DNA of 43,175 bases, taken from a virus. This document shows positions 4,114 to 39,184 of the stretch, in pieces; within the stretch, counting starts at the first letter, position 1; each line of letters opens with the position of its first letter. A program made the translations under genes and the position numbers. The notes beneath the pieces are model-generated. The model was not told the DNA's origin. It ran no database searches and worked only from the letters and a program-made list of their open reading frames with translations. The stretch covers positions 1 through 43,175 of IMG/VR virus record IMGVR_UViG_3300031598_000007. The stretch is one strand, 5' to 3'.

Positions 4114-7100
4114 TTACTTATTCCTAAACATTTTATATTTACCTACGAGGTAACAGATGGGTTCTAGTATAGATCGGTATACACGTCCTAGAGTATCTCG
4201 TTTCTTACCTTGCATCTCCGCACGTAAGTCTGCAGTACGGTGTCTAGCAATATTTTCTAGGATAGTTCTAACAAACTTGTTATTATTTTTATACGCTATA
4301 TCAACAAGTGGTTGGAATAATATATGATAACCTACTTCGTGTGCCTTTGTCAAGCTCTTTTCTGAATAAGATAACCAAATAGCTTGACGATATGAGCCAA
4401 AGCCATATGAATTATTCATAGCGGTACATACAATTTTACCGCCGCCATCACCTGAGCCACCACCACCAGCTTCAGAATTACCATAACTACTACCTTGTCC
4501 AGCCTTTGCTTTAGACTTAGCGGGAGCATTAAAGTTATCTTTTTGTCTATCGGCATAGGTAGTGTTAAATTCTTTTGATATAGAAGGGGCAAAAGTTGTA
4601 CCTTCATTATCATCTCGGTCATTATTATCTCGTCTATTAGCAGGATCAAAGGTACGTGTTAATACATTAGTTCCCGGTTGATTTGTCCATGTTGCACCTG
4701 CCATGTTTGGATCACCACCACTTGCGTCCGTTCCAAGTTTAGCTTTTGAACTTGTAGATAATTCACCTTTTCTGTCTGGTGTAACTGTAGTTTTTCTATT
4801 TGTACTAGCAATACTAATTGCATTACGATCATACTCACCAACTTCACGTTGTCTATAACTAAGACCAAACTTAATCATTTCAACCAGAGTAGGTTTATGG
4901 TATGCACCCTGCTCATCTATAAATACATTTTTACCTGTAGATGATCTAATTGCAAAACCATCTTTGTCTGACAAAACTCCTGTTGAAGTACCGTCGGAAA
5001 CTTGTCCTACTACATAGTTATTTACTGTTGTACCACCCTGCTTGCCTGCACTTTTATTGTCTTGCATTGCTCTACCTAAATTAGCATCAAGTAAATTATT
5101 CCATGCAGTACTCATAGTAGACTGACCCGCCTTATATGTTTTTACAGGTTCACGTTTTTTTACTATGCTATTATTAGTAATATCACTAGTAGCAGTGTCT
5201 GTAACGTTTGAAATTACATTGCTACTTAAGTCCTTTGGACGCAATGGTGGAATTGGTGAAGTTACATTTGATGAAGTAGTAGCCGCACCTACTAAATCTC
5301 TTTCCATGCTAATTGGCGATGGTGCAATATCTCTACCATAACCGTCGGTAGCTTTTCTAGGATCAACACTGACAGGTGCAATATCTCTACCATAACCGTC
5401 AGTAGCTTTTCTAGGATCAACACTGACAGGTGCAATATCTCTACCATAACCGTCAGTAGCTTTTCTAGGATCAACGGCAGGGGTTGTCATAGATTTTGGT
5501 GCAGTGTACTGCGATACATCTCTAGTTTCAGTAGGTAAAGCTGTCACTTGATTTTGTTCGGTTGGGTTTAATATACCTGCGTCTCTATTTTGTGGTAGCC
5601 CTAAACCTAAAACAGGATCACCAGCATTGTTATATTCTGGATAACTACCTACTGCACGGTATACACCGCTTTCATCTGGTTCAAAACTAAATTTTGGATA
5701 GTTATCATTTGTGCCTATTGTAGGGTCTGGTAATGTATTAAGTGCAGTAATTCTATCATTTACTACAGGTTGCATAAAAGGTAATACACCAGTAGGGGTT
5801 GTATAATCTGCAGGGCGAGTGTTGTCTAAAGGTGGAGCACGAACTACAGGAGTATCTAATGTTACAACAGATTTACCAATCTCTGGGTCTTCACGATTTA
5901 CTATAGGAGGAAGGTTCATAGATGATGGTGCTGTATAGGTAGAAGTATTTATAGGCATAGGGGTATTTTGATCTGTCCCGTAAAAACTATCGCGAGTCTG
6001 TACTGCCGTAGGAGACATGTCCCTAAACGTTCGGTTTGGTAAGTTTGGTAAGGGTGCAGTTGCAGGTGCACCTAAATCTCTTTCCATGTTAATTGTAGAA
6101 GTGGGTGTTTGTGAAAAACTAGCTTCTCTTCTAGGATCAATTGTAGAAGTGGGTGTTTGTGAAAAACTAGCTTCTCTTCTAGGATCAATTGTAGAAGTGG
6201 GTGTTTGTGAAAGACTAGCTTCTCTTCTAGGATTAAATGATGAAGTACTAGGTGTTTGTGAAAGACTAGCCTCTCTAGCATCACTAAAACTAGGATTTAC
6301 CTCTGCGGATAATGTAGCCGTACCATCCTCTTTAATAGCTACAGGATTATCTACCTTTTTTAGTTGCTCCGCAACCTTTGTAATTTGTTTTGTTAACTCT
6401 GGGGCAACGCCAAACTTGCTAGTAACTTTATCTACTATACCAGCTAATAGACCACCAGATTGTTCTACAACTTTTGCTCTAATATCTAATAAACTCTGTT
6501 GCTCTACTTTAGAAAATTTACCTGACGTTATGTACTTATCTAAACGGGCAACATTTTTTCTATCTTGTGCTTCCATAAGAGCCATGCCAACAAATCCTAT
6601 GGGTCCAAACATTCCCATTACTACCTTAGCAATAGTACGATTAAAACCTACTGTAGTATTCATGTAACTAGAATACTCTGCCGCTGTCATAGCGTCAAAT
6701 TCAGCTTCTGTAGGTGGTGGTGGGTCTTGGTTCATTCTATCTTCCCTAACACTATCTTCTTCTCTAGTGTCAGCAATAATATCCTCAACAACTGGAGGAA
6801 CGGGTGTAGCATCCGGTGGTGTAGCCGTGTCGTCTGAATTGTATAAATCATATCCTACAGGAATAGGCAAGGACGGTACACCATTTATGAAAGGAATCAT
6901 AAGAACGCTACCAGCGGCATTACGATACTCACGCATTTCCATATACTTATCGCCCATTAAATCTTTAAATGTTGCCAATGGTCTGTCTTGAGGTGGTATA
7001 GGTTGTACAGGTGTAAGAGGACGAGTAGAAGAAGTGTTTACAGAACGGTCAGTCGATGCACTTGTAGGCAAGGTTCTAGTTACACCAGATGGTTGCATTG

Positions 7101-14449: not shown

Positions 14450-15112
14450 TTACTTCTTACCACGCCCTTGTGTACCTGACACAGATGCACCACAGTTAGC
14501 GTAACCACCTTTGTTGTAGCTCTTACCATATGGCATCTTTGCTTTCATGGGTGATCCACCTTTACTAAAGTCCATTGCGGGAGGAAGTGTCACTGGCTTA
14601 GCTCTTTTGTTTGATCTACCCTGCTCCATAGCACGTCCAACTTTGGACAACTCTGCAGCGTCAATGCGGTCAATGATAGTTTCGTATGTAGATTTATCTA
14701 TATCGCCAGCGTCATAAGCCTTCTTAGCTTCCCTACCCAAAGCGACACGCTTGGAAGTTGGTAGAGATCGGTACACAGCCAGAGACAAAGGTTTAAGGCC
14801 GGGTTTAGTAAGCATGGCTGAAGTGTTACCTACTGCTGCCTTACCACGCTCTATATCATCTTGTGGTTTTTTATCATCAAGTTTTTTAGTAACCTTATCA
14901 TCCAGTACAACTTTACGTGGTTCTGTATTAATAGTACCGCCCATGGATTGTTCTTTTTGTTTAACCCTAGCTAACTTCCTAGCCTCCGCTTGTGCTTTCT
15001 CTAAAAGTTTTCTTTCCTTTGCGGCTAGTAGGGCATCTATCTTTTTTTTCCTTCTTGAAGATGTCGGAACTTCACCGCCTAAAAATTTACGTAACTCTTT
15101 TGCTTTACCCAT
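14450..15112 (-). CDS. Lysine-rich hypothetical protein
   Basis: 220 residues, starting after AGGAGAATTATT, the same leader as the capsid gene. The N-terminal 75 residues are extremely basic and helical (SRRKKKIDALLAAKERKLLE). The middle contains PLSLAVYRSLPTSKRVALGR and DKSTYETIIDRIDAAELSKV. The C-terminus is Gly/Lys-rich (GGSPMKAKMPYGKSYNKGGY). It may be a DNA-associated virion or assembly protein. Family not recognised. Confidence 0.7.
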   Translation of the reverse strand: MGKAKELRKFLGGEVPTSSRRKKKIDALLAAKERKLLEKAQAEARKLARVKQKEQSMGGTINTEPRKVVLDDKVTKKLDDKKPQDDIERGKAAVGNTSAMLTKPGLKPLSLAVYRSLPTSKRVALGREAKKAYDAGDIDKSTYETIIDRIDAAELSKVGRAMEQGRSNKRAKPVTLPPAMDFSKGGSPMKAKMPYGKSYNKGGYANCGASVSGTQGRGKK

Positions 15113-15127
15113 AATAATTCTCCTAAA

Positions 15128-15406
15128 TTACCATTTAACTTTATCTGCCCAGTAAGCTGCACTCAATTTACCACGAGCTATATTCTTACCGTGTCGTGCT
15201 TTAAAAGATGCACGTTTCTTTTTCATCTTATCTGATTCACCCTGCTTAGGTTTACCTGCAGTACTTGCACCTTGCTCACCAAAGCGTATCATCTTAATCG
15301 TAGTACCTTCTTTAGCTAATACTACGTGTGACTTCTTTGGGTGCTTAGGTGTACGCTTAGGTTTATTGTACCCACTAAATGTTTCTCCACGATACTCAAC
15401 AGTCAT
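15128..15406 (-). CDS. Conserved small phage protein, unknown function
   Basis: 92 residues ending RHGKNIARGKLSAAYWADKV-KW. The pattern 'IRFGEQGASTAGKP...KKKRASFKARHGKNIA...SAAYWADKVKW' is one I recognise from many marine phages, always without an assigned function. Strongly basic. It sits three bases after the first leftward gene, whose stop is at 15410. Confidence 0.75.
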   Translation of the reverse strand: MTVEYRGETFSGYNKPKRTPKHPKKSHVVLAKEGTTIKMIRFGEQGASTAGKPKQGESDKMKKKRASFKARHGKNIARGKLSAAYWADKVKW

Positions 15407-15409
15407 TTG

Positions 15410-15613
15410 TTAATCCGTCCATCCTTCTTTACGCATAGCCCACTCTACATGCTCTAACGTAAACTTCTCACCGTAGTGACCTTCCACTGCAGTCCTTACA
15501 TAGTATACATCGCTATGGGGAATATGTAAGTTCTTTAAGTTACCATTTAATACATGGTTATAAAACTCTTTAAGAACATTGTCTGTATATAGTTTTACTG
15601 ATTTCTTTGTCAT
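15410..15613 (-). CDS. First leftward gene, small protein of unknown function
   Basis: 67 residues from the ATG at 15613 (an in-frame TTG at 15619 is possible). Sequence: MTKKSVKLYTDNVLKEFYNH, LKNLHIPHSDVYYVRTAVEG, LEHVEWAMRKEGWTD. Helical and mixed charge. It is the first gene of the leftward operon. No family recognised; no strong Shine-Dalgarno is visible. Confidence 0.6.
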   Translation of the reverse strand: MTKKSVKLYTDNVLKEFYNHVLNGNLKNLHIPHSDVYYVRTAVEGHYGEKFTLEHVEWAMRKEGWTD

Positions 15614-15818
15614 TGTCAATACTTAATCTGTATGTATGTACAAGTTTCCTCGCCTATCGGCAATCATCACTTATACTTAATCTAATTGCTTATCACTGTA
15701 CGTATGTACTAATATGTATATATAGTTATATATTATTATAAGCTAGTATATATACATGTTTATGTATCACTGTACGTGTATCACTTAAGTGACCCTACCC
15801 GAATATACTATATACATA

Positions 15819-15846
15819 GTTTTACACAACTTACCCCCCATGTCAA
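15819..15846 (-). promoter_or_regulatory. Putative main leftward promoter
   Basis: Minus strand TTGACA (complement of 15841-15846), 16 bases, TAAAAC (complement of 15819-15824), followed by TATGTATA. The spacing and the AACTAT after the -10 box resemble the capsid promoter at 2944-2971. It would give a leader of roughly 200 nt before the first leftward gene. Confidence 0.5.
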
Positions 15847-16069
15847 TCCCTAATCGACATTGTTACACCTTTTGTGATGTATTGTAACATACTGTCACCA
15901 ATTGTGATATACCTCGAAGTGTGTACACCAGTGTATATGTAATGTGGTTAACACTCTCATTTTACTGATCTGTGTGTTTCTACATGTATAGTATCTACGC
16001 CACCCCCACTGGCCCCCGCCCACCTCTACATATACATACAATTACGGGCATTATGCAAGGTCATGGCGC

Positions 16070-16099
16070 GAGGTGAAAAAACAATTAATGCAACACCTC
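16070..16099. repeat. Inverted repeat GAGGTG/CACCTC
   Basis: Arms at 16070-16075 and 16094-16099 with an 18-base A/T-rich spacer. AGGTGAAAA recurs at 16212-16220. Possible regulator site; no other evidence. Confidence 0.4.
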
Positions 16100-16130
16100 A
16101 CCTTTTACATCAAAGATGTATACAAATCAA

Positions 16131-16217
16131 TCACTTACAGTGATAAGACAACTGTTATGCAATCAGTTGCCACTCTTTAGAGTGATAAAACGGGTCAGTT
16201 ATAGTCACCGAAGGTGA
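16131..16217. repeat. Cluster of short inverted repeats
   Basis: Four dyads in under 90 bases: TCACTTACAGTGA (16131-16143), CAACTG/CAGTTG (16149-16154, 16164-16169), CACTCTTTAGAGTG (16171-16184) and TCACCGAAGGTGA (16205-16217). The first and third are both followed by ATAA, giving a repeated AGTGATAA. None is followed by a T-run. They look like protein-binding dyads or origin hairpins. Confidence 0.6.
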
Positions 16218-16274
16218 AAAGAAGATGTCGAGCATAGAATAGTACACCCCCCTATTTCATTACATGAAATCAAA

Positions 16275-16377
16275 CTACGTCATCATCATCACATTACGTC
16301 ATCATGTTACATCATCATCATCATCACATTACGTCATCATCATCATGTTACATCATCATCATCATCACATTACGTCA
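16275..16377. repeat. CAT-rich iteron-like array
   Basis: Runs of (CAT)n alternate with two fixed words, ACATTACGTCA and GTTACATCA. The full unit is about 41 bases (16309-16349), with a shortened unit before it (16277-16308) and a partial one after (16350-16376). TACGTCA occurs at each unit. The array sits about 60 bases upstream of the rightward promoter. It resembles origin iterons or a cluster of activator sites. Confidence 0.8.
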
Positions 16378-16432
16378 CACTGCTAAAGAATAGAGCAACT
16401 GATTCGTTTTTTTGTTTTGAATAATCCAAATA

Positions 16433-16448
16433 AGTCCAACATTGGACT
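16433..16448. repeat. Palindrome copy 1 (AGTCCAACATTGGACT)
   Basis: The only variant copy: one central base differs from the perfect palindrome AGTCCAACGTTGGACT. It abuts the promoter cassette at 16450, so a protein bound here could touch RNA polymerase. Confidence 0.85.
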
Positions 16449-16449
16449 A

Positions 16450-16504
16450 CCTACTACTACGTAGTAAAATAGTGCTTGACCCCATCAAATTTTTCTGATC
16501 TAAG
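16450..16504 (+). promoter_or_regulatory. Early rightward promoter, cassette copy 1
   Basis: Bases 16450-16480 are identical to 18488-18518. The cassette contains the palindrome TACTACGTAGTA (16455-16466) and ends in the -35 box TTGAC (16476). After a 17-base spacer comes a weak -10 (TCTAAG, 16499-16504) preceded by TGA. TGATCT and GCATCGAAA are shared at nearly the same offset in copy 2. A weak -10 plus an upstream palindrome suggests activator dependence. Confidence 0.75.
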
Positions 16505-16559
16505 TTATGGCATCGAAACGGCAATCATGCTTCTCGAAATTCATTTTAGGAAAACTCTT

Positions 16560-17168
16560 ATGACAAATTCAGCAAACACAGATACAAACACAGCGGTTCT
16601 TAACACTCTTGAATTGATCGGAGCTGACATAGCACGACAATGGAAGTCTATAACCAAAGGTCAAGTATCTCGTTTCAATCAGTACACTAAGGCTGATGGC
16701 TTTGATATGAAACTTGGTAACCTTATGGTTACTCTTTCAGAGGAAGGTTCAGGACGTATCAAGTCAAGTAGACTTGTAGAATGTGGCATCAACATAGTTG
16801 ATAAGAGACGACGAGCTGAGGCTATGTGGTTCGTTAATAACGAAGTTGATTGCAGGGAATTCATTGCTAAAAGCAAAAGAGGTTACACATCACTTACATC
16901 ATTGCAACTTGCAATGTCAAAGGTTGACAATGATTCTGCACCAAACCCAGACAAGCCAGAGGCTTCAGGAAAGCTTGAGCCAGCTCACAACTTTATTGAT
17001 GCAACACCAGAAACTAGCGAAGCTAAAGTTTACACAAAAGAGACAATCTTTAGAGACTTGATTGCAATCTGTAAAGAAAGTGATGTAGACATTATGGATA
17101 TAGCAGAAATGCTTCTAAGAGAAGCTGATGCGATTGAGGTAGATACTCCTGATGCTATAGCGGCATAA
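16560..17168 (+). CDS. First rightward early protein, unknown function
   Basis: 202 residues from the ATG at 16560. An in-frame start farther upstream would lie inside the promoter, so this start is preferred; TAGGAAAA lies upstream. Sequence: MTNSANTDTNTAVLNTLELI, then SRLVECGINIVDKRRRAEAM and a Pro/Ala/Ser linker, then an acidic helical end (ESDVDIMDIAEMLLREADAI). No family recognised. As the first gene after the control region it could be a regulator or host takeover protein, but no clear helix-turn-helix is visible. Confidence 0.75.
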   Translation: MTNSANTDTNTAVLNTLELIGADIARQWKSITKGQVSRFNQYTKADGFDMKLGNLMVTLSEEGSGRIKSSRLVECGINIVDKRRRAEAMWFVNNEVDCREFIAKSKRGYTSLTSLQLAMSKVDNDSAPNPDKPEASGKLEPAHNFIDATPETSEAKVYTKETIFRDLIAICKESDVDIMDIAEMLLREADAIEVDTPDAIAA

Positions 17169-17173
17169 CATAA

Positions 17174-17230
17174 GTAACCTTATAGGTTACATTAGGCTTA
17201 CTCCCTAGCTTAGTGTAACTTTATAAGTTA
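17174..17230. repeat. Two related hairpins with a TTATA loop
   Basis: GTAACC-TTATA-GGTTAC (17174-17190) and TAACT-TTATA-AGTTA (17216-17230). Sequences after each are also related (ATTAGGCTTACTCCC versus CTTAG, palindrome, TTACTTCC). The first looks like a degenerate copy of the second module that lacks the 16-bp palindrome. Confidence 0.65.
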
Positions 17231-17234
17231 ACTT

Positions 17235-17250
17235 AGTCCAACGTTGGACT
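17235..17250. repeat. Palindrome copy 2 with RBS cassette
   Basis: Perfect AGTCCAACGTTGGACT followed by TACTTCCTGAAAGGAAA and an ATG at 17274. TTCC and GGAA in that leader can pair across TGAAA and would cover the Shine-Dalgarno. The same cassette precedes the next two genes. Confidence 0.9.
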
Positions 17251-17273
17251 TACTTCCTGAAAGGAAAAATAAA

Positions 17274-17444
17274 ATGCATAAGGTTTTAAATAAATTTATG
17301 ATTGATCCAACAGAAAAAAATGCTGTAAGATTAATATCTTATATTAATAAGCATCCATTCTCAATGTTAACGGCTTCTACTTATGTCAATGAGATTATCG
17401 GACAAGCCAGAGAAATTGCAGGTTGGAGAATCTACAAAGCTTAA
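17274..17444 (+). CDS. Small early protein, unknown function
   Basis: 56 residues: MHKVLNKFMIDPTEKNAVRL, ISYINKHPFSMLTASTYVNE, IIGQAREIAGWRIYKA. The ATG at 17274 follows GAAAGGAAAAATAAA. An upstream TTG lies inside the palindrome and is unlikely. Helical, basic. One of three consecutive tiny genes with identical 36-bp leaders. Confidence 0.7.
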   Translation: MHKVLNKFMIDPTEKNAVRLISYINKHPFSMLTASTYVNEIIGQAREIAGWRIYKA

Positions 17445-17467
17445 ATGAAATAAATGATTTAACAACT

Positions 17468-17483
17468 AGTCCAACGTTGGACT
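17468..17483. repeat. Palindrome copy 3 with RBS cassette
   Basis: Perfect AGTCCAACGTTGGACT followed by TACTTCCTGAAAGGAAA and an ATG at 17505. Leader identical to copy 2 up to the start codon region. Confidence 0.9.
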
Positions 17484-17504
17484 TACTTCCTGAAAGGAAA
17501 AACA

Positions 17505-17696
17505 ATGCTAATCGAACGTACTTCAAGACTATCAGGTGATGTACATGTCATGGATATTGATGTGTTACCTATACAAATAACGTTGTGGGAACAGGGTGAA
17601 CTTGTTCAAAATGCTATGCCTGAGCTATCTGCAGATGAACGTGAGTTTATCATGACTGGTATAACTCCCACAGAGTGGGATGAATTTTTTAACTAG
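17505..17696 (+). CDS. Small acidic early protein, unknown function
   Basis: 63 residues: MLIERTSRLSGDVHVMDIDV, LPIQITLWEQGELVQNAMPE, LSADEREFIMTGITPTEWDE-FFN. Predicted beta strands then an acidic helix. The phrase 'LSADEREFIMTGITPTEWDEFF' resembles small proteins in marine phages and plasmids that I recognise only as hypothetical. Its stop overlaps the next palindrome by two bases. Confidence 0.75.
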   Translation: MLIERTSRLSGDVHVMDIDVLPIQITLWEQGELVQNAMPELSADEREFIMTGITPTEWDEFFN

Positions 17697-17710
17697 TCCA
17701 ACGTTGGACT
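17695..17710. repeat. Palindrome copy 4 with RBS cassette
   Basis: Perfect AGTCCAACGTTGGACT, starting in the stop codon of the preceding gene, followed by TACTTCCTGAAAGGAAA and an ATG at 17733. Confidence 0.9.
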
Positions 17711-17732
17711 TACTTCCTGAAAGGAAATTATT

Positions 17733-17852
17733 ATGTCACGAATTAAATCTGAAACGAAACGTGCGGAGCTATGGAAAGTAATAGCTTTGGTTCAACAAGC
17801 TATCTTTGGTTTACTCATTGGTATTGCCATTGGCTATGGCTTGTTCATATGA
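17733..17852 (+). CDS. Tiny single-TM protein
   Basis: 39 residues: MSRIKSETKRAELWKVIALV then QQAIFGLLIGIAIGYGLFI. A basic N-terminus precedes one hydrophobic helix with GxxxG-like spacing. Good leader (AAGGAAATTATT). Overlaps the next gene by ATGA. Likely an inner-membrane peptide; role unknown. Confidence 0.65.
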   Translation: MSRIKSETKRAELWKVIALVQQAIFGLLIGIAIGYGLFI

Positions 17853-18043
17853 AGTATACAACACACACTACCAAGGCACATGTAATGCCTAAGCCTAGCC
17901 GTGTGGATCGTATTCAAAGATTACAGGCACGTCTTAAGTTACAGCGTGAATGTCTGTCACCTGTTGTTGATGTGTCATATGACAAGCGAAATAACGTAGT
18001 TGAATTTACTTCCGATACAGGTTGGAAAACCTACAAAACTTAA
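17849..18043 (+). CDS. Small basic protein, unknown function
   Basis: 64 residues from the ATG at 17849, which overlaps the previous stop (ATGA): MKYTTHTTKAHVMPKPSRVD, RIQRLQARLKLQRECLSPVV, then DVSYDKRNNVVEFTSDTGWK. The coupling decides the start. Basic helix followed by a beta hairpin. No family recognised. Confidence 0.65.
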   Translation: MKYTTHTTKAHVMPKPSRVDRIQRLQARLKLQRECLSPVVDVSYDKRNNVVEFTSDTGWKTYKT

Positions 18044-18067
18044 CACTAACAATAGGAAAATAAACAA

Positions 18068-18313
18068 ATGTATACATACAGTTTAAAGATAACTCGAAAC
18101 GAAACATGGCGACCCCAAATAACAGTGCCAGAGCAAGACCGCAAAGCCTTTGCTAATATGTCAGATGATCGGGCAAATGAGTACTTAACATGGCTTGCTT
18201 ACGAAAATTCTGATTATGTTTTTGATGACTACTACCATTCATTCACGTATGAGAGTGATACAGATATTGAGGACTTTCAAATAGTAACCCAAACAGGAGA
18301 AAAACAATCATGA
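18068..18313 (+). CDS. Small acidic protein, unknown function
   Basis: 81 residues, rich in Asp, Glu and Tyr: MYTYSLKITRNETWRPQITV, MSDDRANEYLTWLAYENSDY, VFDDYYHSFTYESDTDIEDF. Beta start, then an acidic aromatic stretch. Stop overlaps the next ATG. No family recognised; acidic aromatic composition would suit a DNA mimic, which is speculation. Confidence 0.65.
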   Translation: MYTYSLKITRNETWRPQITVPEQDRKAFANMSDDRANEYLTWLAYENSDYVFDDYYHSFTYESDTDIEDFQIVTQTGEKQS

Positions 18314-18486
18314 TAGCTATATGTTATGACGAATGTGGGACTGAGGTATCAATAGAGGTTAAAAACCTAGATGAGATACCGCCTGAATATAAATTTAGAT
18401 ACTCTCAAATGCATACTGAGCGAGAGTTGGCAGAGTGGCGACTATCTATGCAAGACGATCACGATGACTATGACTATGATTATTAA
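18310..18486 (+). CDS. Tiny acidic protein, unknown function
   Basis: 58 residues: MIAICYDECGTEVSIEVKNL, DEIPPEYKFRYSQMHTEREL, AEWRLSMQDDHDDYDYDY. ATGA overlap with the previous stop. The C-terminus is almost pure Asp/Tyr. Ends just before promoter cassette 2. No family recognised. Confidence 0.6.
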   Translation: MIAICYDECGTEVSIEVKNLDEIPPEYKFRYSQMHTERELAEWRLSMQDDHDDYDYDY

Positions 18487-18487
18487 C

Positions 18488-18542
18488 CCTACTACTACGT
18501 AGTAAAATAGTGCTTGACAGCAGGTTAGTTATCTGATCTGTT
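18488..18542 (+). promoter_or_regulatory. Early rightward promoter, cassette copy 2
   Basis: Bases 18488-18518 repeat 16450-16480 exactly, including the palindrome TACTACGTAGTA (18493-18504) and TTGACA (18514-18519). Seventeen bases further is TCTGTT, preceded by TGA. TGATCT and GCATCGAAA are shared with copy 1. The 31-base identity in a non-coding gap between two unrelated genes is strong evidence for function. Confidence 0.75.
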
Positions 18543-18568
18543 GTAAGCATCGAAAGTGTTCATCGTTA

Positions 18569-18584
18569 AGTCCAACGTTGGACT
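18569..18584. repeat. Palindrome copy 5
   Basis: Perfect AGTCCAACGTTGGACT, 50 bases downstream of the second promoter's -35 box, so it probably lies just after the transcription start. It precedes a different leader (AGTGGAAAAGGAAATACACA). Confidence 0.9.
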
Positions 18585-18604
18585 AGTGGAAAAGGAAATA
18601 CACA

Positions 18605-19015
18605 ATGTCTACATATAAAGAAAACTACCTTGTATATCAATGTATGTTGAGTGCAGGACAACATAAGTATGTAAATGATAATCCTGATAGTAGTATGGCT
18701 AATGCCTACTTTGGAATTACGTCATTGTTTGGTGGTGACGCTGAGCATTTAATGATTAATGCTTTGGAATATGGTATATATAAACCTACTATGTTGATGT
18801 CTATCTATGAAGCACATAGTCGTGGCACATATGAAAAACTATGGGCAGAAGGTAACGACGAAGGTAATTTTACAGTAGAACGTAAAGACTTGCGAATGCA
18901 TCCTAGCTTGTCCGTTGGAGATGTAATAGTACGTCTCACAACTGGCGATGTCCATATCGTATTACCCGTTGGCTTTATGCAAGTTAACGTGGAACTATCA
19001 CTACAATCAATCTAA
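18605..19015 (+). CDS. Early protein, possible YodL-like C-terminus
   Basis: 136 residues. The C-terminal stretch HPSLSVGDVIVRLTTGDVHI is similar in style to the 'HSLSVGDVV' strand of YodL-type phage/plasmid proteins. The N-terminal half (MSTYKENYLVYQCMLSAGQH, AEHLMINALEYGIYKPTMLM) is helical and unfamiliar. First gene of the second early transcript. The family link is tentative. Confidence 0.65.
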   Translation: MSTYKENYLVYQCMLSAGQHKYVNDNPDSSMANAYFGITSLFGGDAEHLMINALEYGIYKPTMLMSIYEAHSRGTYEKLWAEGNDEGNFTVERKDLRMHPSLSVGDVIVRLTTGDVHIVLPVGFMQVNVELSLQSI

Positions 19016-19037
19016 TATCTTGAAAGGATATAATACT

Positions 19038-19373
19038 ATGACTAATATTTTCAAAAAGCCTCTCGTAAAAACTACTAACCCTGAGTTGTATGCAAAGCAT
19101 ACTTACCATATGTCAAAGGCTTATAAGCTGACATATAACTACTCTGTAGTAGACGATTATATTTTACAGAATTGGAACGATACCACTGTGAAACAGATGG
19201 CTGTTGATCTTAATGAGTATCCACGGCGTGTCTCTTATAGAGTAGCTGTTCTTAGGTCGGTTGGTTTAATTCGGAGTAAGCACAACTTAGAGCGTCGTAA
19301 TCTAATGAAACAGTACAGAGTACTAATGACTTGGGTTGATGCCATTAAAAATGAATTGAAAGACGTGGTGTAA
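19038..19373 (+). CDS. Probable helix-turn-helix DNA-binding protein
   Basis: 111 residues from the ATG at 19038, after GAAAGGATATAATACT. Residues about 35-75 (DDYILQNWNDTTVKQMAVDL, NEYPRRVSYRVAVLRSVGLI) read as a winged-helix/HTH: a 'TVKQMAVDLNEYPRRVSYRVAVLRSVGLI' pattern with a basic recognition helix. It is the best candidate in the early region for the protein that reads one of the repeated palindromes. That link is inference. Confidence 0.72.
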   Translation: MTNIFKKPLVKTTNPELYAKHTYHMSKAYKLTYNYSVVDDYILQNWNDTTVKQMAVDLNEYPRRVSYRVAVLRSVGLIRSKHNLERRNLMKQYRVLMTWVDAIKNELKDVV

Positions 19374-19529
19374 ATGAAAAAGAAACCTGTGGTCATAAAC
19401 CCTGTGGCAAAAGCTATGTTACAAAACAGGCAATCCCCACAGGTTGTCCCACCTAAGAAGGGTGGCAAAGCTAAACGTAATCGTAAGGAGAATAATATCA
19501 ATGCAATACGAGATGCGAAACTTTATTAA
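19374..19529 (+). CDS. Tiny basic protein, unknown function
   Basis: 51 residues: MKKKPVVINPVAKAMLQNRQ, SPQVVPPKKGGKAKRNRKEN, NINAIRDAKLY. Starts on the base after the preceding stop (TAAATG). The 'KKKPVV.NPVAKAL..NR...QVV' opening is one I know from small marine-phage proteins. Probably nucleic-acid binding; unproven. Confidence 0.65.
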   Translation: MKKKPVVINPVAKAMLQNRQSPQVVPPKKGGKAKRNRKENNINAIRDAKLY

Positions 19530-19668
19530 GTTTTCGAAGAAAGTTAAGTCCAACGTTGGACTAACGAAAAAGTATTCCGATGAATGGAAACGCAAACGTA
19601 AGATACAACGTCAAGCTAAACTAAAATTACAATTAGGAACAATCAATTATAAAAGTAAGGTAGGATAA
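19501..19668 (+). CDS. Tiny basic protein carrying a palindrome in its coding sequence
   Basis: 55 residues: MQYEMRNFIKFSKKVKSNVG, LTKKYSDEWKRKRKIQRQAK, LKLQLGTINYKSKVG. ATG at 19501 is preceded by GGAGAATAATATCA. It overlaps the previous gene by 29 bases. Palindrome copy 6 lies inside and encodes KSNVGLT. Function unknown. Confidence 0.6.
   Translation: MQYEMRNFIKFSKKVKSNVGLTKKYSDEWKRKRKIQRQAKLKLQLGTINYKSKVG
19547..19562. repeat. Palindrome copy 6, within a coding sequence
   Basis: Perfect AGTCCAACGTTGGACT read in frame as part of KSNVGLT in the 55-residue gene. There is no start codon just downstream, so its role here cannot be as an RBS leader. Confidence 0.9.
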
Positions 19669-19669
19669 C

Positions 19670-20296
19670 ATGTATGTAAGAGACGTAGCAGAAATTAAAG
19701 CATTCGTTAAGTGGCGTGGCACTGATGCCTTTGTAAACACTGGCTTGTTTGTATTACTAACAATACAAGCTGGCTTGTCTACTGTTAAGGGTAGCATGAT
19801 TAAGGTAGAATCTGATGGTGTTGATGCCAACTGTTTGTGGGGTAAGAAGGGTGATGGTTACACATATCTACAAGATAATGCTGATTACTTGTATGGCAAG
19901 ATGTATGACATAGCTGACAAGAAAGGTTATGAGAGTGTGGAAGCCTGCTCCGATGTAGTGCAACTGTTTATGCAAGTACCAAACTTGGGTATGGTCAAGG
20001 CATCTTTCCTTGCACAATGCTTAGGCTTTAACGTAGCTTGTATTGATAGTCACAATATCACACGATTGGGTTTAAATCCTAACGTAGTTAAGACACCACC
20101 TGCAACGATGAAACCTGCAACTGTTCGTAAGAAGGTTGAGGCATACGTTACATTGACACAAGAGGAGGGTACAAGATACTGGTGGGACACATGGTGTGAC
20201 TACGTAGCTGGAAACCGCGCCAATCGTGCCTTAGATACTGGTGATGTTGTATCTAGGTTTCACGTTGAGTGTATAACACATGGATTTGAAGCATGA
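19670..20296 (+). CDS. Putative helix-hairpin-helix (DNA glycosylase-like) protein
   Basis: 208 residues. Residues 103-130 (VPNLGMVKASFLAQCLGF, then NVACIDSHNITRLGL) match the plan of an HhH-GPD fold: a hairpin with a 'PxLGxxKA' turn followed by a conserved Asp (D126) in IDSHN, like the 'VDTHV' of base-excision glycosylases. The N-terminus (FVLLTIQAGLSTVKGS) and C-terminus (RYWWDTWCDYVAGNRANRAL) are unfamiliar. No Fe-S cysteines are seen at the end. DNA repair or modification is plausible; inference. Confidence 0.6.
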   Translation: MYVRDVAEIKAFVKWRGTDAFVNTGLFVLLTIQAGLSTVKGSMIKVESDGVDANCLWGKKGDGYTYLQDNADYLYGKMYDIADKKGYESVEACSDVVQLFMQVPNLGMVKASFLAQCLGFNVACIDSHNITRLGLNPNVVKTPPATMKPATVRKKVEAYVTLTQEEGTRYWWDTWCDYVAGNRANRALDTGDVVSRFHVECITHGFEA

Positions 20297-20562
20297 AAAT
20301 ATTAAGTGAACACGAGTTGTGCGATTTTATTAATGACACCTTGGGTGCATGGGTAGATGAGGAAATGAATGAGAACCCTATTGATGAGGGTAACATATCA
20401 AGGGCACAACGTTCCGCTGAGACGTGGGACAGTTTCATTGCTGACTTAGTGCTATGGATGCACGTTAAGTATGAGAGCAACCCCGATGGGATGTTTTCAA
20501 AGGCTGTTGATAAGTCCAACGTTGGACTAACAATAGAAGATTTTATATTAGGAGAAGATTAG
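20293..20562 (+). CDS. Small acidic protein carrying a palindrome
   Basis: 89 residues, MKILSEHELCDFINDTLGAW, WDSFIADLVLWMHVKYESNP, ending VGLTIEDFILGED. ATGA overlap with the previous gene. Palindrome copy 7 encodes the same KSNVGLT as in copy 6, at its C-terminus. Function unknown. Confidence 0.65.
   Translation: MKILSEHELCDFINDTLGAWVDEEMNENPIDEGNISRAQRSAETWDSFIADLVLWMHVKYESNPDGMFSKAVDKSNVGLTIEDFILGED
20513..20528. repeat. Palindrome copy 7, within a coding sequence
   Basis: Perfect AGTCCAACGTTGGACT, in frame as KSNVGLT near the end of the 89-residue gene, 36 bases upstream of the next ATG at 20564. Last copy in the window. Confidence 0.9.
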
Positions 20563-20563
20563 C

Positions 20564-20785
20564 ATGGAACGAATGGTATTAAGTGGTATTATGCACGACA
20601 TAATAGACATACGAAAGACAATTGAAAGACTTGCACCACACACACTAACCGAGACATTGGTGTATAACTTCTCTCTCCCTAATGCCTCTAACTTGGGAGC
20701 GTTACAAGAATATACACTGTCTGATCAGTTTGATTCTTTGATACATACATTCGAAGACCATCTCTCCAATATAACTAAATTGTAA
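20564..20785 (+). CDS. Small early protein, unknown function
   Basis: 73 residues, helical: MERMVLSGIMHDIIDIRKTI, ERLAPHTLTETLVYNFSLPN, LQEYTLSDQFDSLIHTFEDH. Preceded by AGGAGAAGATTAGC. Coupled to the next gene by TAATG. No family recognised. Confidence 0.65.
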   Translation: MERMVLSGIMHDIIDIRKTIERLAPHTLTETLVYNFSLPNASNLGALQEYTLSDQFDSLIHTFEDHLSNITKL

Positions 20786-21024
20786 TGGCAGTCATGGCAT
20801 ACGAGGTAACAGTAGATATAGATGGTAATTTTTCCATCATAACATTAGATGATACCTACCCAGCAGTAAGTGACTGGTCAAGTGCTTCAGAGTTTGCTAT
20901 TCATATGGCTATGCACATGCACCCTGATTCAGAGATAGAATTTATTGACTGTACAGAGTACGAACACGAAGTGTATTCATCATGGGGGAAACATATATAT
21001 GAAACACCAACCTTACTACAGTGA
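20785..21024 (+). CDS. Small acidic early protein, unknown function
   Basis: 79 residues from the coupled ATG at 20785 (a second Met at 20794): MAVMAYEVTVDIDGNFSIIT, DWSSASEFAIHMAMHMHPDS. Beta then helix then beta, acidic. No family recognised. Confidence 0.65.
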   Translation: MAVMAYEVTVDIDGNFSIITLDDTYPAVSDWSSASEFAIHMAMHMHPDSEIEFIDCTEYEHEVYSSWGKHIYETPTLLQ

Positions 21025-21100
21025 CGATGACCCATGTGATGACTGGTCACGTACACCTTTACCGAAACCAATAAAACAACAGGAGAATAACAATGACTAA
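20999..21100 (+). CDS. Very short acidic peptide gene
   Basis: 33 residues: MKHQPYYSDDDPCDDWSRTP then LPKPIKQQENNND. It overlaps the previous gene by 26 bases and the next by 8. The composition (YYSDDDPCDDW) is protein-like, and the continuous overlap chain supports translation, but at this length it could be chance. Confidence 0.4.
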   Translation: MKHQPYYSDDDPCDDWSRTPLPKPIKQQENNND

Positions 21101-21713
21101 AGCAATACATATACAAAGTATATTTCAAATGATACTAAAGTTATTAGAACAAAAAGATATGGAAATAGATGAGGCTTTTACTGAGGGTGTAGAATTTGAT
21201 GCACAAAACCATGAAGATAAACGCTTTGCGTTAGCCGAAAGGGATAGGGTGCTTATTGATAAAGGCTACACGAAAGGTTTGCGTGAAGGTATTGGGTTTG
21301 GATATGATAAAGGCTACGATATAGGGAAAATTGCGCATCAAACCAACCGCACCGCCTCTTACGATGCAGGCTGGGAAGAAGGCTGTGAAGAAGGCTATGA
21401 AGAAGGCTACGATGCAGGCTGGTGTGAAGGCTATGATAGAGGCCACGCTAATGGTGAAGAAGAGCGATTGGAATTAGCAGATGCTTTAAGTAAAGCAGAG
21501 GAAAATGACTATGAAGCAGGCTGGGAAGAAGGCTGTGAAGAAGGCCACGATGCAGGCTGTAAAGAAGGCTATGAAGAAGGTCACGATGCAGGCTGGGATG
21601 AAGGCTATGATAAAGGCCACGATAATGGGGAAGATAGAGGCTTTAATAATGCCTGTCTTGCTATATCTACCTTTGCCTTAAATAAAGCAGAGGAAAATGA
21701 CGATGAAGAATGA
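21093..21713 (+). CDS. Glycine-every-fourth-residue (GX3) repeat protein
   Basis: 206 residues, start after AGGAGAATAACA. Gly occurs at every fourth position in three runs: six (58-78), eight (93-121) and eleven (143-183), with spacers such as W-E-E, Y-D-A, H-D-K. This is the GX3 pattern of Yae1/Lto1 ('deca-GX3') and of the FliH-type GxxxG helices, which pack helix to helix or bind partners. It is strongly acidic. DNA repeats (GGCTATGAAGAAGGC-like units) indicate recent expansion. Role unknown; the next gene encodes a membrane peptide. Confidence 0.75.
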   Translation: MTKAIHIQSIFQMILKLLEQKDMEIDEAFTEGVEFDAQNHEDKRFALAERDRVLIDKGYTKGLREGIGFGYDKGYDIGKIAHQTNRTASYDAGWEEGCEEGYEEGYDAGWCEGYDRGHANGEEERLELADALSKAEENDYEAGWEEGCEEGHDAGCKEGYEEGHDAGWDEGYDKGHDNGEDRGFNNACLAISTFALNKAEENDDEE

Positions 21714-21813
21714 ACGTAACTTTAGTGGATTTGCTTTGAGTATGTGTATCATAGTATTTATAATGATAGTTGCACCAGTAGTTACGATGCAAGTCGTTGG
21801 GTGGTACAATTGA
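21703..21813 (+). CDS. Tiny single-TM peptide before the SleB hydrolase
   Basis: 36 residues: MKNERNFSGFALSMCIIVFI then MIVAPVVTMQVVGWYN. A single hydrophobic helix after a polar start. It overlaps the preceding stop region and ends in TGA overlapping a TTG at 21810. Possibly a small holin or a spanin-like accessory; inference from the neighbouring wall hydrolase. Confidence 0.55.
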   Translation: MKNERNFSGFALSMCIIVFIMIVAPVVTMQVVGWYN

Positions 21814-22202
21814 TTACGGCTTCACTCATGTGCTTGGCTCTCAACATATACCATGAGTCACGAGGTGACACTATGTCAGGTCAGTATGCAGTAGCCCATG
21901 TTGTAATCAACAGGGTGCAAAGCGACAAGTACCCAAGTAGTGTATGTAGTGTAGTTAAGCAGGGATACAGTAATGGTAGGCATAAGTGTCAATTCAGTTG
22001 GTTCTGTGATGGTAAGTCAGACACGCCTCGTGAGAAAATAGCGTGGGCTTGGTCACTACTTGTAGCTGATGATGTACTACGTGGTAACTCGTATGATGAA
22101 ACAGACAACGCTACACACTACCACGCACTGTATGTTAAACCTTATTGGGCTGATTCACTGAAGGTGACTGGAGTAATTGGGTCACACATATTCTATAAAT
22201 AG
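21810..22202 (+). CDS. SleB-type cell wall hydrolase
   Basis: 130 residues from a coupled TTG at 21810; ATG at 21828 or GTG at 21744 are alternatives. The SleB (Hydrolase_2) core is clear: CLALNIYHESRGDTMSGQYA with the catalytic Glu in YHE, then VAHVVINRVQSDKYPSSVCS, VVKQGY, QFSWFCDGKSDTP and the end DNATHYHALYVKPYWADSLK. It cuts peptidoglycan glycan strands (lytic transglycosylase-like). Unusually it lies in the early operon, far from the holin-GH108 lysis pair. Confidence 0.85.
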   Translation: MITASLMCLALNIYHESRGDTMSGQYAVAHVVINRVQSDKYPSSVCSVVKQGYSNGRHKCQFSWFCDGKSDTPREKIAWAWSLLVADDVLRGNSYDETDNATHYHALYVKPYWADSLKVTGVIGSHIFYK

Positions 22203-27865: not shown

Positions 27866-29914
27866 ATGAAACACCTAACACTGGACGTAGAGAATACAAC
27901 AGTCAAACGTAATGGTAAGTTACACCTTGATCCATTTGAGCCAGAGAATACATTGGTACAAGTAGGTATGCTAGATGATCTTGGAAACGAAAACATTATA
28001 ACTTTCGATCACTCAGAGCAACAACCTACTACGGCGGGGCGGCAGATAGTGCAAGATGCATTAGACGCTACCCCGCTACTTATTGCCCACAACGCACCTC
28101 ACGATCTACTGTGGTTGTGGGAGTCAGGCTTTGTATATGATGGCGCTGTGTATGATACACTGTTAGGTGAGTACGTACTACAACGTGGTCAGAAGCAACC
28201 CCTATCACTTGATGCCTGTGCAGAACGATATGACTTAGACACAAAGAAACAAGATACATTAAAGGAGTACTTTAAGAATGGATATTCCACACGTGATATT
28301 CCTCATGCTGAACTATCGGAGTATCTATCACACGATCTTCACGCAACTCAAGAATTATACTACTGTTTGCAGACACAGTACGAGGAATGCAAATCACTAA
28401 TACCTACAATAGACTTGACTAATCAATTAGCTGTACACCTAGCACGTATATATCAACGTGGCTTTGCAGTTGATATGGATGCACTCAATGCAGTTCGTGT
28501 TGAGTTCGAACAAGAGCGTAACCTACTGATGATGGCGCTTGAAGAACATGCCAGTGACCTAATGGGTGACAGGCCAATAAACCTCAACAGCCCAGAGCAA
28601 TTGTCTTGGGTTATATATAGTCGTAAGCCGAAGGACAAGAAGATGTGGGCAGACCTGTTCGATGAACGAATGCCTGACGCTGAGTATCGACGTAACGTAA
28701 ATGCATACAGTGACAAATTGTACAAGCAGAAGGCACATCAGTGTCGGGAATGCAAGGGCAGTGGTCAGGTATGGAAAGAAAAGAAAGATGGTACACCTTA
28801 TGCTAGATCAAATAAATGCAATACTTGCTCCGCTAGTGGATATACTTTTACTGATAACATTAGCGCAGTGGCTGGCCTAAAGTTCTCACCCCCTAATTCC
28901 AAGTGGATTAGTGCCAACGGTTTTGGTACTGGCAAAGACAATCTTATATTCCTTGAGGGCATTGCACGTTCCAAGGGTATGAAGGATGCAGAGCTGTTCT
29001 TACAGAATGTACGTAGGTTGTCAGCCGTTGAGACATACCTCAGTAGTTTTGTTGAGGGCATAGCTACTCACGTCAAGCCCGATGGGTTGCTACATGTACG
29101 ACTACTACAACACCGCACTGGTACTGGACGGTTATCTGGTGCTGATCCTAACATGCAGAACATGCCACGTGGTGGTACGTTCCCAGTTAAGAAGGTGTTT
29201 GTGTCACGATGGAAGGGCGGTAAAATTTGCGAGGCGGATTTTGCACAACTTGAATTTCGAGTTGCGGCGTTCCTGTCACAAGACATGACTGCAATCAACG
29301 AGGTCATTGATGACTTTGATGTACATGCTTATACTGCTAAAGTTATATCTGATGCAGGCCAACCTATATCCAGACAGGAAGCAAAGTCACACACTTTCGC
29401 ACCCCTTTATGGCGCGTCGGGGTTCGGTAGATCACCAGCAGAAGCATCGTACTACAAGCAGTTCACGACTAAGTACAGTGGTGTAGCTAAGTGGCATGAG
29501 AGCCTAGCCAAAGAAGCCTTGAACACTGGCATGATAACTACACCATCAGGACGTGAGTTTGCATTCCCTGATGTGGTAAGACGACGATTTGGTGGGGTTA
29601 CATTCTTCACACAGATAAAGAATTATCCTGTCCAATCGTTTGCAACCGCAGACATAGTACCTATATCACTAATCTATATTGATAAGTTACTGTCTGCTAA
29701 CAAGCTACGTAGTTGCGTAGTAAATAGTGTACACGATTCAGTTGTAATCGACATACACCCTGATGAAGAGGAACAAGTACTAAAAGTAATACAAGCCACC
29801 AACGATAAGTTAGTACCAATCATCAATCGTAAGTGGGGTGTTGACTTCAATATACCCCTACTATTAGAGGCAAAGATTGGCCCAAACTGGCTTGACACAA
29901 AAGACGTAGTATGA
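27866..29914 (+). CDS. Family A DNA polymerase with 3'-5' exonuclease
   Basis: 682 residues. Exonuclease: D7/E9 (LTLDVENT), LIAHNAPHD (N76, D80), YLSHDLHAT (D157). Polymerase: motif A EADFAQLEFR (D458), motif B REAK-type QEAKSHTFAPLYG (K507, F511, Y515), motif C VVNSVHDSVV (H623/D624). Residues 293-321 carry CRECKGSG and CNTCSASG, a DnaJ-like zinc ribbon inserted between the exonuclease and palm (thumb region). Phe sits at the E. coli 762-equivalent position. It is the replicative polymerase. Confidence 0.95.
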   Translation: MKHLTLDVENTTVKRNGKLHLDPFEPENTLVQVGMLDDLGNENIITFDHSEQQPTTAGRQIVQDALDATPLLIAHNAPHDLLWLWESGFVYDGAVYDTLLGEYVLQRGQKQPLSLDACAERYDLDTKKQDTLKEYFKNGYSTRDIPHAELSEYLSHDLHATQELYYCLQTQYEECKSLIPTIDLTNQLAVHLARIYQRGFAVDMDALNAVRVEFEQERNLLMMALEEHASDLMGDRPINLNSPEQLSWVIYSRKPKDKKMWADLFDERMPDAEYRRNVNAYSDKLYKQKAHQCRECKGSGQVWKEKKDGTPYARSNKCNTCSASGYTFTDNISAVAGLKFSPPNSKWISANGFGTGKDNLIFLEGIARSKGMKDAELFLQNVRRLSAVETYLSSFVEGIATHVKPDGLLHVRLLQHRTGTGRLSGADPNMQNMPRGGTFPVKKVFVSRWKGGKICEADFAQLEFRVAAFLSQDMTAINEVIDDFDVHAYTAKVISDAGQPISRQEAKSHTFAPLYGASGFGRSPAEASYYKQFTTKYSGVAKWHESLAKEALNTGMITTPSGREFAFPDVVRRRFGGVTFFTQIKNYPVQSFATADIVPISLIYIDKLLSANKLRSCVVNSVHDSVVIDIHPDEEEQVLKVIQATNDKLVPIINRKWGVDFNIPLLLEAKIGPNWLDTKDVV

Positions 29915-38700: not shown

Positions 38701-39184
38701 CTTTACGATCATAAATAGCAGTCATGTTTGCCTTACGAGATTTGACAAGTTCTACTTCAGTTGTTGTACCGTTTTCTTCATCAAGTTTTCTGGCTCGTTC
38801 TAGTGCTCGTTGGTATACTTCGTTATCTTCATCTCGTACACGCATAGGCTTTCCAAAAAGTCCTACTTTATCGTACTCATTATAATACTCTTCTTCTCCC
38901 TTACCTTCATCAATTTGTTTAAGTATGCGAGCATCCATTATAGACAACTCATCTTCCCAAGACAGCTCTACATCACTGGCTACAGGAACTACAGGCTCTT
39001 CGTCAATGACTACAGGTTCTTTGTCAATGACTACAGGTTCTTTGTCAATGACTACAGGTTCTTTGTCAATGACTACAGGTTCTTTGTCAATGACTACAGG
39101 TTTTTCGACAACTACAGTCCCTACATTACCGCTGTCTTTTTTCTTCATCTTTGCAAGACGTTGTTCATAAGTTAATGGTTCCAT
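35717..39184 (-). CDS. Large internal virion (ejection) protein
   Basis: 1155 residues. The N-terminus has a Val/Glu/Pro repeat (EPVVIDK five times) and then a long helical protein. A hydrophobic, Ala/Gly-rich stretch around residues 225-265 (MMATANFLPFVGAAIGIADL, AATAGISLVEVGASIFGGRA) could insert into membrane. The C-terminal third contains VIMPFPRFMFNSMELLGQYA. Size, composition and clustering with other virion genes fit a T7 gp16-type protein ejected with DNA. No lytic transglycosylase motif was seen. Confidence 0.7.
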   Translation of the reverse strand: MEPLTYEQRLAKMKKKDSGNVGTVVVEKPVVIDKEPVVIDKEPVVIDKEPVVIDKEPVVIDEEPVVPVASDVELSWEDELSIMDARILKQIDEGKGEEEYYNEYDKVGLFGKPMRVRDEDNEVYQRALERARKLDEENGTTTEVELVKSRKANMTAIYDRKVTNRAGDFKDAAIDVNNLLMSDNVLERTFAEGLLESGLDVDTISAMMATANFLPFVGAAIGIADLPQNYSSIKKDLANGNFKSAAATAGISLVEVGASIFGGRAVVKTAKNNLMEKNIKRASEGFIKSAGGADLAARQVAEVATENAAKVALDNRVLADRLIKEFEVKVGKTISVQDGKHLKIDEVKAREAGKETLEQITERDGDLFNLNLGEDTITSPILNPNKFNGIVAVASELEKKFPGSFDPDKTIIDNLLDLTISKKLDGQELINLLDDYGLNFEDYVLTIVGSGSEAGKVLNNLSQIRRLKPDAIMQIDKDAAKLAKDGEWRNRIMRVENIRRGGLVSQLATASRNLQSGAIRLPMESLGNVMDQAIYNMQYGTEGDKLFRMVDTVFSGEVWRDSFRGMKYVFSRPDIAKDYTDLIMRSPELAKQNSALLNNLNEIQKLSGRGKGGLEDKALSALEDAVDFLNTPNRWQEHLMRRGIFFSELQRLSKREFGIDLIDELQKGNLKGLLNDSSNVIKRGKNQRSFLSIVDDSVQKSLDITYAKQPDTEVFRSVSTFITRNGLTVIMPFPRFMFNSMELLGQYAAGASIPLTQKLSSIVTGGRVGGGPLTAKGRQRIQRNIQGFAAVGAAYLYRTSKDAPSKYNEVPVGDKAVLNTTATYPLAQYLYAGEAIKRLMDGTFFGTWFDPKEFVELFTGSNFRVGVGNSILEEIAELANATDLTAGETAGRLIGRPLGNYLSTWGVAFGQVIDAERATGVRGTKLKETAQDPTFSFADSLGKNLVQPLRNRGLITTPSQEATMPDKEYAGFYDGRERMYPGMKFLGLSMTTAPTEDKEYLGNFGIDWRILSSKSKVPSIKNYEIRMLNNFLPIIVELGQKQEDKLRLEYSEQSDTVQKEFTSNEYVSNKLRPLLKAQISKYKTKISSASKVKGDAYTRAMIEYRKTPREFRKLATTEFIKRGINRGNRVPDPLNADDLRELAIIGKAYKKAYSK
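38996..39100 (-). repeat. 21-bp tandem repeat (five copies) in the large virion gene
   Basis: Units start at 38996, 39017, 39038, 39059 and 39080, four of them identical. They encode EPVVIDK near the N-terminus. The identity suggests copy-number variation by slippage. Confidence 0.95.

Follow-up and report, generated by a model that had tools for sequence, protein, structure and literature searches.

A marine phage of the HMO-2011 type carries, in a slot whose content is swapped among its relatives, a gene for a real and unusual accessory protein in which glycine recurs at every fourth residue (GX3). The GX3 module recurs in unrelated phages; the protein is neither a Yae1 nor a FliH. Within the window, by which we mean the entire stretch of 43,175 nucleotides analyzed, and in comparisons with other genomes, we directly observed the repeat and its rule, a nonrandom match to FliH and Yae1_N models, recurrence elsewhere with lengths that keep the register, growth by duplication, and the swappable slot.

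A glycine array in exact register

The GX3 gene (Table 1) has a strong Shine-Dalgarno sequence (AGGAG) directly 5' of its ATG. Of the 27 glycines in its product, 25 belong to three runs with 6, 8, and 11 members, each spaced exactly i,i+4. The original prediction had described this 25-glycine array in strict four-residue spacing, and both the reading of the open reading frame (ORF) and shuffle tests agree with it. The protein has 22 GxxxG pairs and a longest i,i+4 run of 11, compared with 3.4 ± 1.6 pairs (maximum, 10) and runs of at most 7 in 20,000 composition shuffles. Among all other frames of at least 60 amino acids in the window, none had a glycine run longer than 4. At the DNA level, an 8-glycine pattern matched five times in the window and never in shuffles. 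A looser GX3 DNA pattern run against IMG/VR returned mainly low-complexity DNA.

The repeat rule is G-[YWHC]-[DE]-[EAKR]. At the first spacer position (x1), 19 of 22 spacers have Y (8), W (4), H (4), or C (3); at the second (x2), 16 of 22 have an acidic residue (D or E). Spacers had been predicted to consist of Trp, Tyr, or His plus acidic residues, which holds for x1 and x2, respectively, but Cys is also common at x1, and block 1 is less regular (GYTK, GLRE, GIGF, GYDK, and GYDI, one off-register glycine included). The protein has a net charge of about −36 at pH 7 and ends in ...KAEENDDEE. An out-of-frame ORF at 21505-21681 (58 aa, Lys/Met-rich) showed no sign of being a gene and was attributed to the repeat together with duplicated gene-boundary sequence.

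Table 1. Coordinates of the GX3 gene, its parts, and its neighbors in the window
Feature	Position	Strand	Description and basis
Conserved 79-aa gene, upstream border of slot	20785..21024	+	Same place in nearly all relatives
GX3-repeat protein gene	21093..21713	+	ATG to TGA, 206 aa, pI about 4.0; ORF and shuffle tests
N-terminal region, residues 1-56, without repeats	21093..21260	+	pLDDT and charge-hydropathy
GX3 block 1	21264..21332	+	Gly 58-78, 6 glycines, less regular
GX3 block 2	21369..21455	+	Gly 93-121, 8 glycines
Internal copy of gene-end sequence TTAA.TAAAGCAGAGGAAAATGAC.ATGAAG	21482..21516	+	91% match to 21674-21708 and block alignment
GX3 block 3	21519..21641	+	Gly 143-183, 11 glycines; 36-bp unit ×3 at 86%
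36-aa ORF	21703..21813	+	One hydrophobic, probably membrane-spanning segment; sequence
Cell wall hydrolase (PF07486) bordering the slot downstream, conserved	21810..22202	+	Pfam, 90.9 bits

Accessory cargo in a swappable slot

By DNA search, the window groups with HMO-2011-type marine phages, namely, the Roseobacter phages CRP-345 and CRP-1 (71%) and Puniceispirillum phage HMO-2011 (67%). Its family A DNA polymerase (27866-29914) contains an inserted DnaJ CXXCXGXG zinc region, and a DnaJ-type zinc insert in the polymerase defines the HMO-2011-type group (PMC9038755). The GX3 gene lies amid codirectional early-type genes, with primase, helicase, and polymerase downstream. This gene order is in keeping with the early operon that had been proposed, but a promoter scan did no better than chance.

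Between the 79-aa gene and the hydrolase, about 20 relatives have differing genes or nothing. In some, the slot holds a phrog_624-type "DNA binding protein" gene (e.g., CRP-345 gp13), and in others it holds small unknown genes; the bordering hydrolase is 57 to 67% identical to its counterparts in CRP-1 and CRP-345. The GX3 gene was absent from all 12 related records that were searched whole, the three isolates included, and in IMG/VR it was found in only two further contigs (L002 and L003; 99% identical DNA). Two nucleotides differ within the gene in these contigs, including a GTG in place of the ATG start, and since the protein is identical, they are uninformative about periodicity and about selection. 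In L002 (4389-4625), and likewise in L003, an extra 78-aa gene ending in KKAEEN stands in front of the GX3 gene; it is absent from the window between 25-nt imperfect direct repeats that span the ribosome-binding and start region. Because the slot content varies, relatives lack the gene, and the neighboring 78-aa gene is missing from the window, the GX3 gene is accessory cargo in a swappable slot.

The start of the 36-aa ORF overlaps the GX3 stop, and its own stop overlaps the hydrolase start (TTGA), overlaps that make translational coupling of the three genes likely. The 36-aa ORF had no family match and is possibly a small membrane lysis peptide. On the other side of the GX3 gene, a conserved micro-ORF (20999-21100; motif DDPCDDWS..PIPKPK) overlaps the end of the 79-aa gene; it was seen at 29 loci in forms of about 20 to 36 aa and is unannotated at that site in CRP-345 and CRP-1.

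Growth of the array

Block 2 and its tail were copied to give block 3, which has the three 36-bp units, and the tail that follows it; the copied stretch takes in the gene end and the region where the next gene starts. The internal copy of that gene-end sequence (Table 1) shows that duplication produced block 3 and its tail. Judging from the sequence, the arrays expanded through 12/36-bp duplication. GGC encodes 18 of the 25 glycines in the runs, whereas nine large genes of the window use it for 69 of 432. When block 2 is compared with block 3, the glycine codons differ only silently and the spacers differ in amino acid, although the numbers are small.

Register-specific likeness to Yae1_N and FliH

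A resemblance to the deca-GX3 motif of Yae1/Lto1 and to the GxxxG repeats of FliH had been claimed. We found that the resemblance is real and depends on register but does not extend to membership in either family. On Pfam (hmmscan), the GX3 protein scored 28.7 bits with Yae1_N (PF09811), 1.2 bits over the cutoff of 27.5; in a genome search, single matches scored 20.9 and 15.4 bits, under the cutoff. The matching stretch (21360-21455) is at block 2. The FliH models of NCBIfam (PRK05687 and relatives) gave 59.3, 52.2, 49.3, and 48.5 bits against cutoffs of 180, 293, 192, and 260, respectively, with a top E value of 4e-16 and with the best matched stretches confined to the repeat. Neither result of this profile search was family specific.

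When spacers were rotated from x1x2x3 to x2x3x1 with the glycines fixed, the Yae1_N match was lost, as it was with spacer shuffles, and the FliH score fell from 59 to about 11 bits. The likeness as judged by these comparisons is register specific and more than composition. We ran two control scans, one of eight further phage GX3 proteins on Pfam and one of four on the FliH models. On Yae1_N, four unrelated phage proteins scored 19.5 to 27.5 bits, the highest values in that control being 25.2, 27.3, and 27.5; on the FliH models, the top scores were 30 to 48 bits. Because rotation abolishes the match and unrelated phage proteins score nearly alike, what is shared is a rule, Gly-aromatic-acidic-x, rather than a lineage.

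Yae1/Lto1 membership was ruled out by these unrelated-phage scores, by the lack in the GX3 protein of the C-terminal Trp of Lto1, and by the nature of the pathway: Yae1-Lto1 acts in the eukaryotic cytosol, and the C-terminal Trp on Lto1 is required (PMC4523923). FliH membership was ruled out by scores far under the cutoffs and by the occurrence of the same module in Streptomyces phages. The FliI-binding C-terminal domain of FliH is missing from the protein, and no flagellar gene was found among the scanned ORFs of this phage. Within the repeat, FliH GxxxG motifs prefer an aromatic x1 and E, Q, or A at x3 (PMC2674601). The GX3 protein follows this preference, with 73% aromatic residues at x1 and 59% E, Q, or A at x3.

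The same module in other phages and in bacteria

PHROG 4785 matched the GX3 protein at 50 bits over profile positions 41-86 of 94 only, the repeat part, while Sitrop gp58 and a Bacillus phage protein covered positions 1-94 and 1-87, respectively. This family is widespread, being found in Streptomyces arquatroviruses (118 matching records, 114 of them Streptomyces) and in Bacillus herelleviruses (34 records). Glycine columns were 95% identical, compared with 67% elsewhere, among seven Streptomyces-phage homologues; among six Bacillus-phage homologues, glycine columns and other columns were alike (86% for both). In both families, array lengths vary by multiples of four residues. The original prediction had turned on whether disorder runs throughout and periodicity is lost in homologues; this refuting outcome did not arise, in that two unrelated phage families keep the four-residue register. 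In most of the Bacillus herelleviruses viewed (L126 and L138-L141), the GX3-tail gene lies directly 3' of an RtcB ligase gene.

One of the Streptomyces-phage proteins, Endor2 gp63 (L132 1501-1770), is annotated "flagellar assembly protein FliH." Streptomyces hosts have no flagella, and the label is most likely a misannotation arising from the GX3 repeat. Automatic FliH or Yae1 labels on such proteins follow the Gly-aromatic-acidic-x rule and not descent.

Across 199 Bacillota genomes, Yae1_N matches were FliH proteins encoded beside FliI, tails of Rpn-like nucleases, and small standalone GX3 proteins. The share of spacers with an aromatic x1 was the same in the GX3 protein and in FliH (73%), 71% in the small Bacillota proteins, and 67% and 80% in Streptomyces and Bacillus phages, respectively; Rpn-like tails had none (0%). 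The samples are small, and their classes were judged visually from the form of the tail and the neighbors. Rpn-like tails are 85% aliphatic at x1 and nearly neutral. Phage arrays are the most acidic class (−0.9 to −1.4 per spacer; −0.9 in this protein). The small standalone proteins (L148-L152 and L154-L156) have 95 to 137 aa and aromatic GX3 repeats. At the level of sequence, FliH, Yae1_N, two unrelated phage lineages, and the small Bacillota proteins follow one rule, which is distinct from the aliphatic Rpn repeats. A search of a limited literature collection found no paper on phage GX3 proteins.

A possible association module

Two AlphaFold runs gave pLDDT values of 41 and 37, with both models helical and not extended. 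Only in residues 1-56 is pLDDT mostly near or over 50, and by charge-hydropathy this part alone plots as folded; blocks 2 and 3 plot as disordered. No solved structure matched the protein. The long helix-packing faces that had been proposed were not borne out in the monomer models at these confidence values. No relative of the N-terminal region was found outside this phage; Acinetobacter phage Effie gp490 (50% over 24 residues) was taken as a chance match, the similarity lying inside a DNA polymerase.

In known systems, bacterial and yeast helper proteins among them, repeats of this kind serve association. Glycines of the Lto1 GX3 motif are required for Yae1 binding (PMC4523923), and FliH dimerizes (PMC2674601). 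In Rpn proteins, the four-residue repeats sit in the dimerization helix of RpnS, where one added repeat abolishes pairing (PMC10327210). Because the repeats of Lto1, FliH, and Rpn are association helices, we read the phage arrays as candidate helical association surfaces, and the recurrence of the rule in phages of unrelated hosts, with lengths that step by four, likewise suggests an association module. Our leading reading, held with somewhat less than even confidence, is that the GX3 protein is a recurrent aromatic, acidic helix module for self-association or partner association in host takeover; by analogy, it is probably a tool for host contact. The protein would begin with a small N-terminal helical region, followed by the three aromatic acidic blocks. 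In such a helical surface, the glycines would allow close approach of a second helix, the x1 aromatics would pack on that helix, and the fitting partner would depend on register and repeat number. After infection, the protein would most likely act as a self-associating or partner-binding adaptor or as an inhibitor of a host protein. Since the structure prediction is of low confidence, we infer both helicity and target, as we do association and host takeover.

The low pLDDT and the position of blocks 2 and 3 make a disordered, sticky acidic tail the main rival. Such a tail, with aromatics at even intervals among acidic and glycine spacers, would bind multivalently or form condensates as a flexible region, or would mimic nucleic acid, with no stable helix. 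The charge of −36 fits this explanation, as does one weak match among PDB sequences, the G-Y-rich tail of an exoribonuclease. Disorder would have no need for exact register, yet two phage families change length by multiples of four; FliH and Yae1_N matches collapse on spacer rotation, and the AlphaFold models, though poor, are helical. We therefore regard the disordered tail as rather unlikely, while giving it serious weight. A part in lysis would be suggested by the overlapping genes at 21093-21713, 21703-21813, and 21810-22202, through which a GX3 protein coupled to a one-segment membrane peptide and a hydrolase might tune lysis. Relatives keep the hydrolase without a GX3 gene and with unrelated genes in the slot, and in other phages annotated lysis genes do not adjoin the GX3 module, so that this role is improbable. 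Nearly the same holds, at a slightly lower level, for the idea of a FliH mimic that interferes with FliH-FliI or FliH-FliN contacts, thereby stopping motility or saving energy. FliH models give the best significant family similarity, and the x1 preference is alike, but the match is confined to the repeat and misses cutoffs of at least 180 bits, the FliI-binding domain is absent, and phages of flagella-free Streptomyces have similar modules, one of them annotated FliH. The narrow pass on Yae1_N would favor a true Yae1/Lto1 relative that serves as an Fe-S or cytosolic-assembly adaptor. We consider this next to impossible: the controls contradict it, unrelated phage proteins reaching 25 to 27.5 bits and Bacillota matches being Rpn-like tails, FliH, and small unknown proteins, and the missing C-terminal Trp and the eukaryotic pathway speak against it as well. 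The flagellar or Fe-S target named in the original prediction thus found no support.

A further candidate partner came from defense proteins. The only match of the GX3 protein among these was PADLOC C3a178, a "putative invertase" (22.8 bits, residues 3-80), which also weakly matches Escherichia coli RpnC at the RpnC repeats. In Rpn C-terminal domains, hypervariable four-residue/12-bp repeats in the dimerization helix set pairing specificity, and the authors of that study suspect a phage factor as the driver of the variation (PMC10327210). The GX3 repeats might then be a decoy that pairs with the variable helix of RpnL/RpnS and neutralizes or titrates an antiphage nuclease, and the C3a178 match is consistent with this. 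However, the repeat rule and charge differ: the protein does not fit the Rpn-type repeat of aliphatic plus charged residues, with 73% aromatic x1 against 0% and −0.9 per spacer against near neutrality. Alignment to RpnA, RpnB, RpnC, and RpnE outside the repeats gave nothing beyond chance, neither the RpnS helical core after the repeat nor a PDDEXK nuclease domain before it is present, and other phage GX3 proteins did not match C3a178. A decoy for Rpn is accordingly very improbable. If the target were a host repeat helix, the GX3 protein would be a candidate for the phage factor of the Rpn study (PMC10327210), although the differing rules make this unlikely. A broader conjecture, which we rate as a long shot, is that unrelated phages repeatedly evolved acidic aromatic GX3 helices as "length-coded" decoys, which would pair with host repeat helices (Rpn-type, FliH-like adaptors, or small chromosomal GX3 proteins) and in which repeat number and register would set the target.

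Other repeats in the window

A 16-bp palindrome, AGTCCAACGTTGGACT, occurs in six exact and two variant copies at 14634-20528 (16433, 17235, 17468, 17695, 18569, 19547, and 20513), where 0.09 are expected. Copies are mostly 25 to 40 nt 5' of start codons or within small genes. GTCCAANNTTGGAC is present in 1 to 10 copies per locus at about 20 HMO-2011-like loci, CRP-345 and CRP-1 included. The AGTCCAACGTTGGACT copies look like a set of operators or stoperators, in a group of phages that carry integrases. The window also has a TCA-rich tandem array 5' of the early genes (16264-16377, 19- to 41-bp units), and large minus-strand genes contain tandem repeats at 5321-5475 (54 bp, 2.9 copies), 6091-6276 (48 bp, 3.8 copies), and 38988-39102 (21 bp, 5.5 copies).

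Comparison with known systems

With the PHROG 4785 proteins of Streptomyces arquatroviruses and Bacillus herelleviruses, the GX3 protein shares a small N-terminal helical region, an acidic aromatic GX3 tail, location in an accessory region, and the x1 and x2 preferences. Those proteins have one array of 4 to 11 glycines in 86 to 101 aa, in contrast to three arrays in 206 aa, and the N termini are unrelated. The small Bacillota proteins resemble it in their mostly aromatic GX3 repeats and have about 100 aa but are less acidic. With the N-terminal repeats of FliH it has in common the repeat rule, the aromatic x1, and E, Q, or A at x3, whereas it is more acidic and is without the FliI-binding domain. 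The likeness to the deca-GX3 proteins Yae1 and Lto1 is the long GX3 array; bacteria have no CIA pathway, and the Yae1_N match is generic to aromatic GX3 arrays. Finally, the C-terminal repeats of RpnS and other Rpn proteins are similar in having four-residue units of 12 bp, in variable number, within a helix and in an antiphage context (PMC10327210), but they have an aliphatic x1 and neutral charge, and the three-helix core of RpnS has no counterpart in the GX3 protein.
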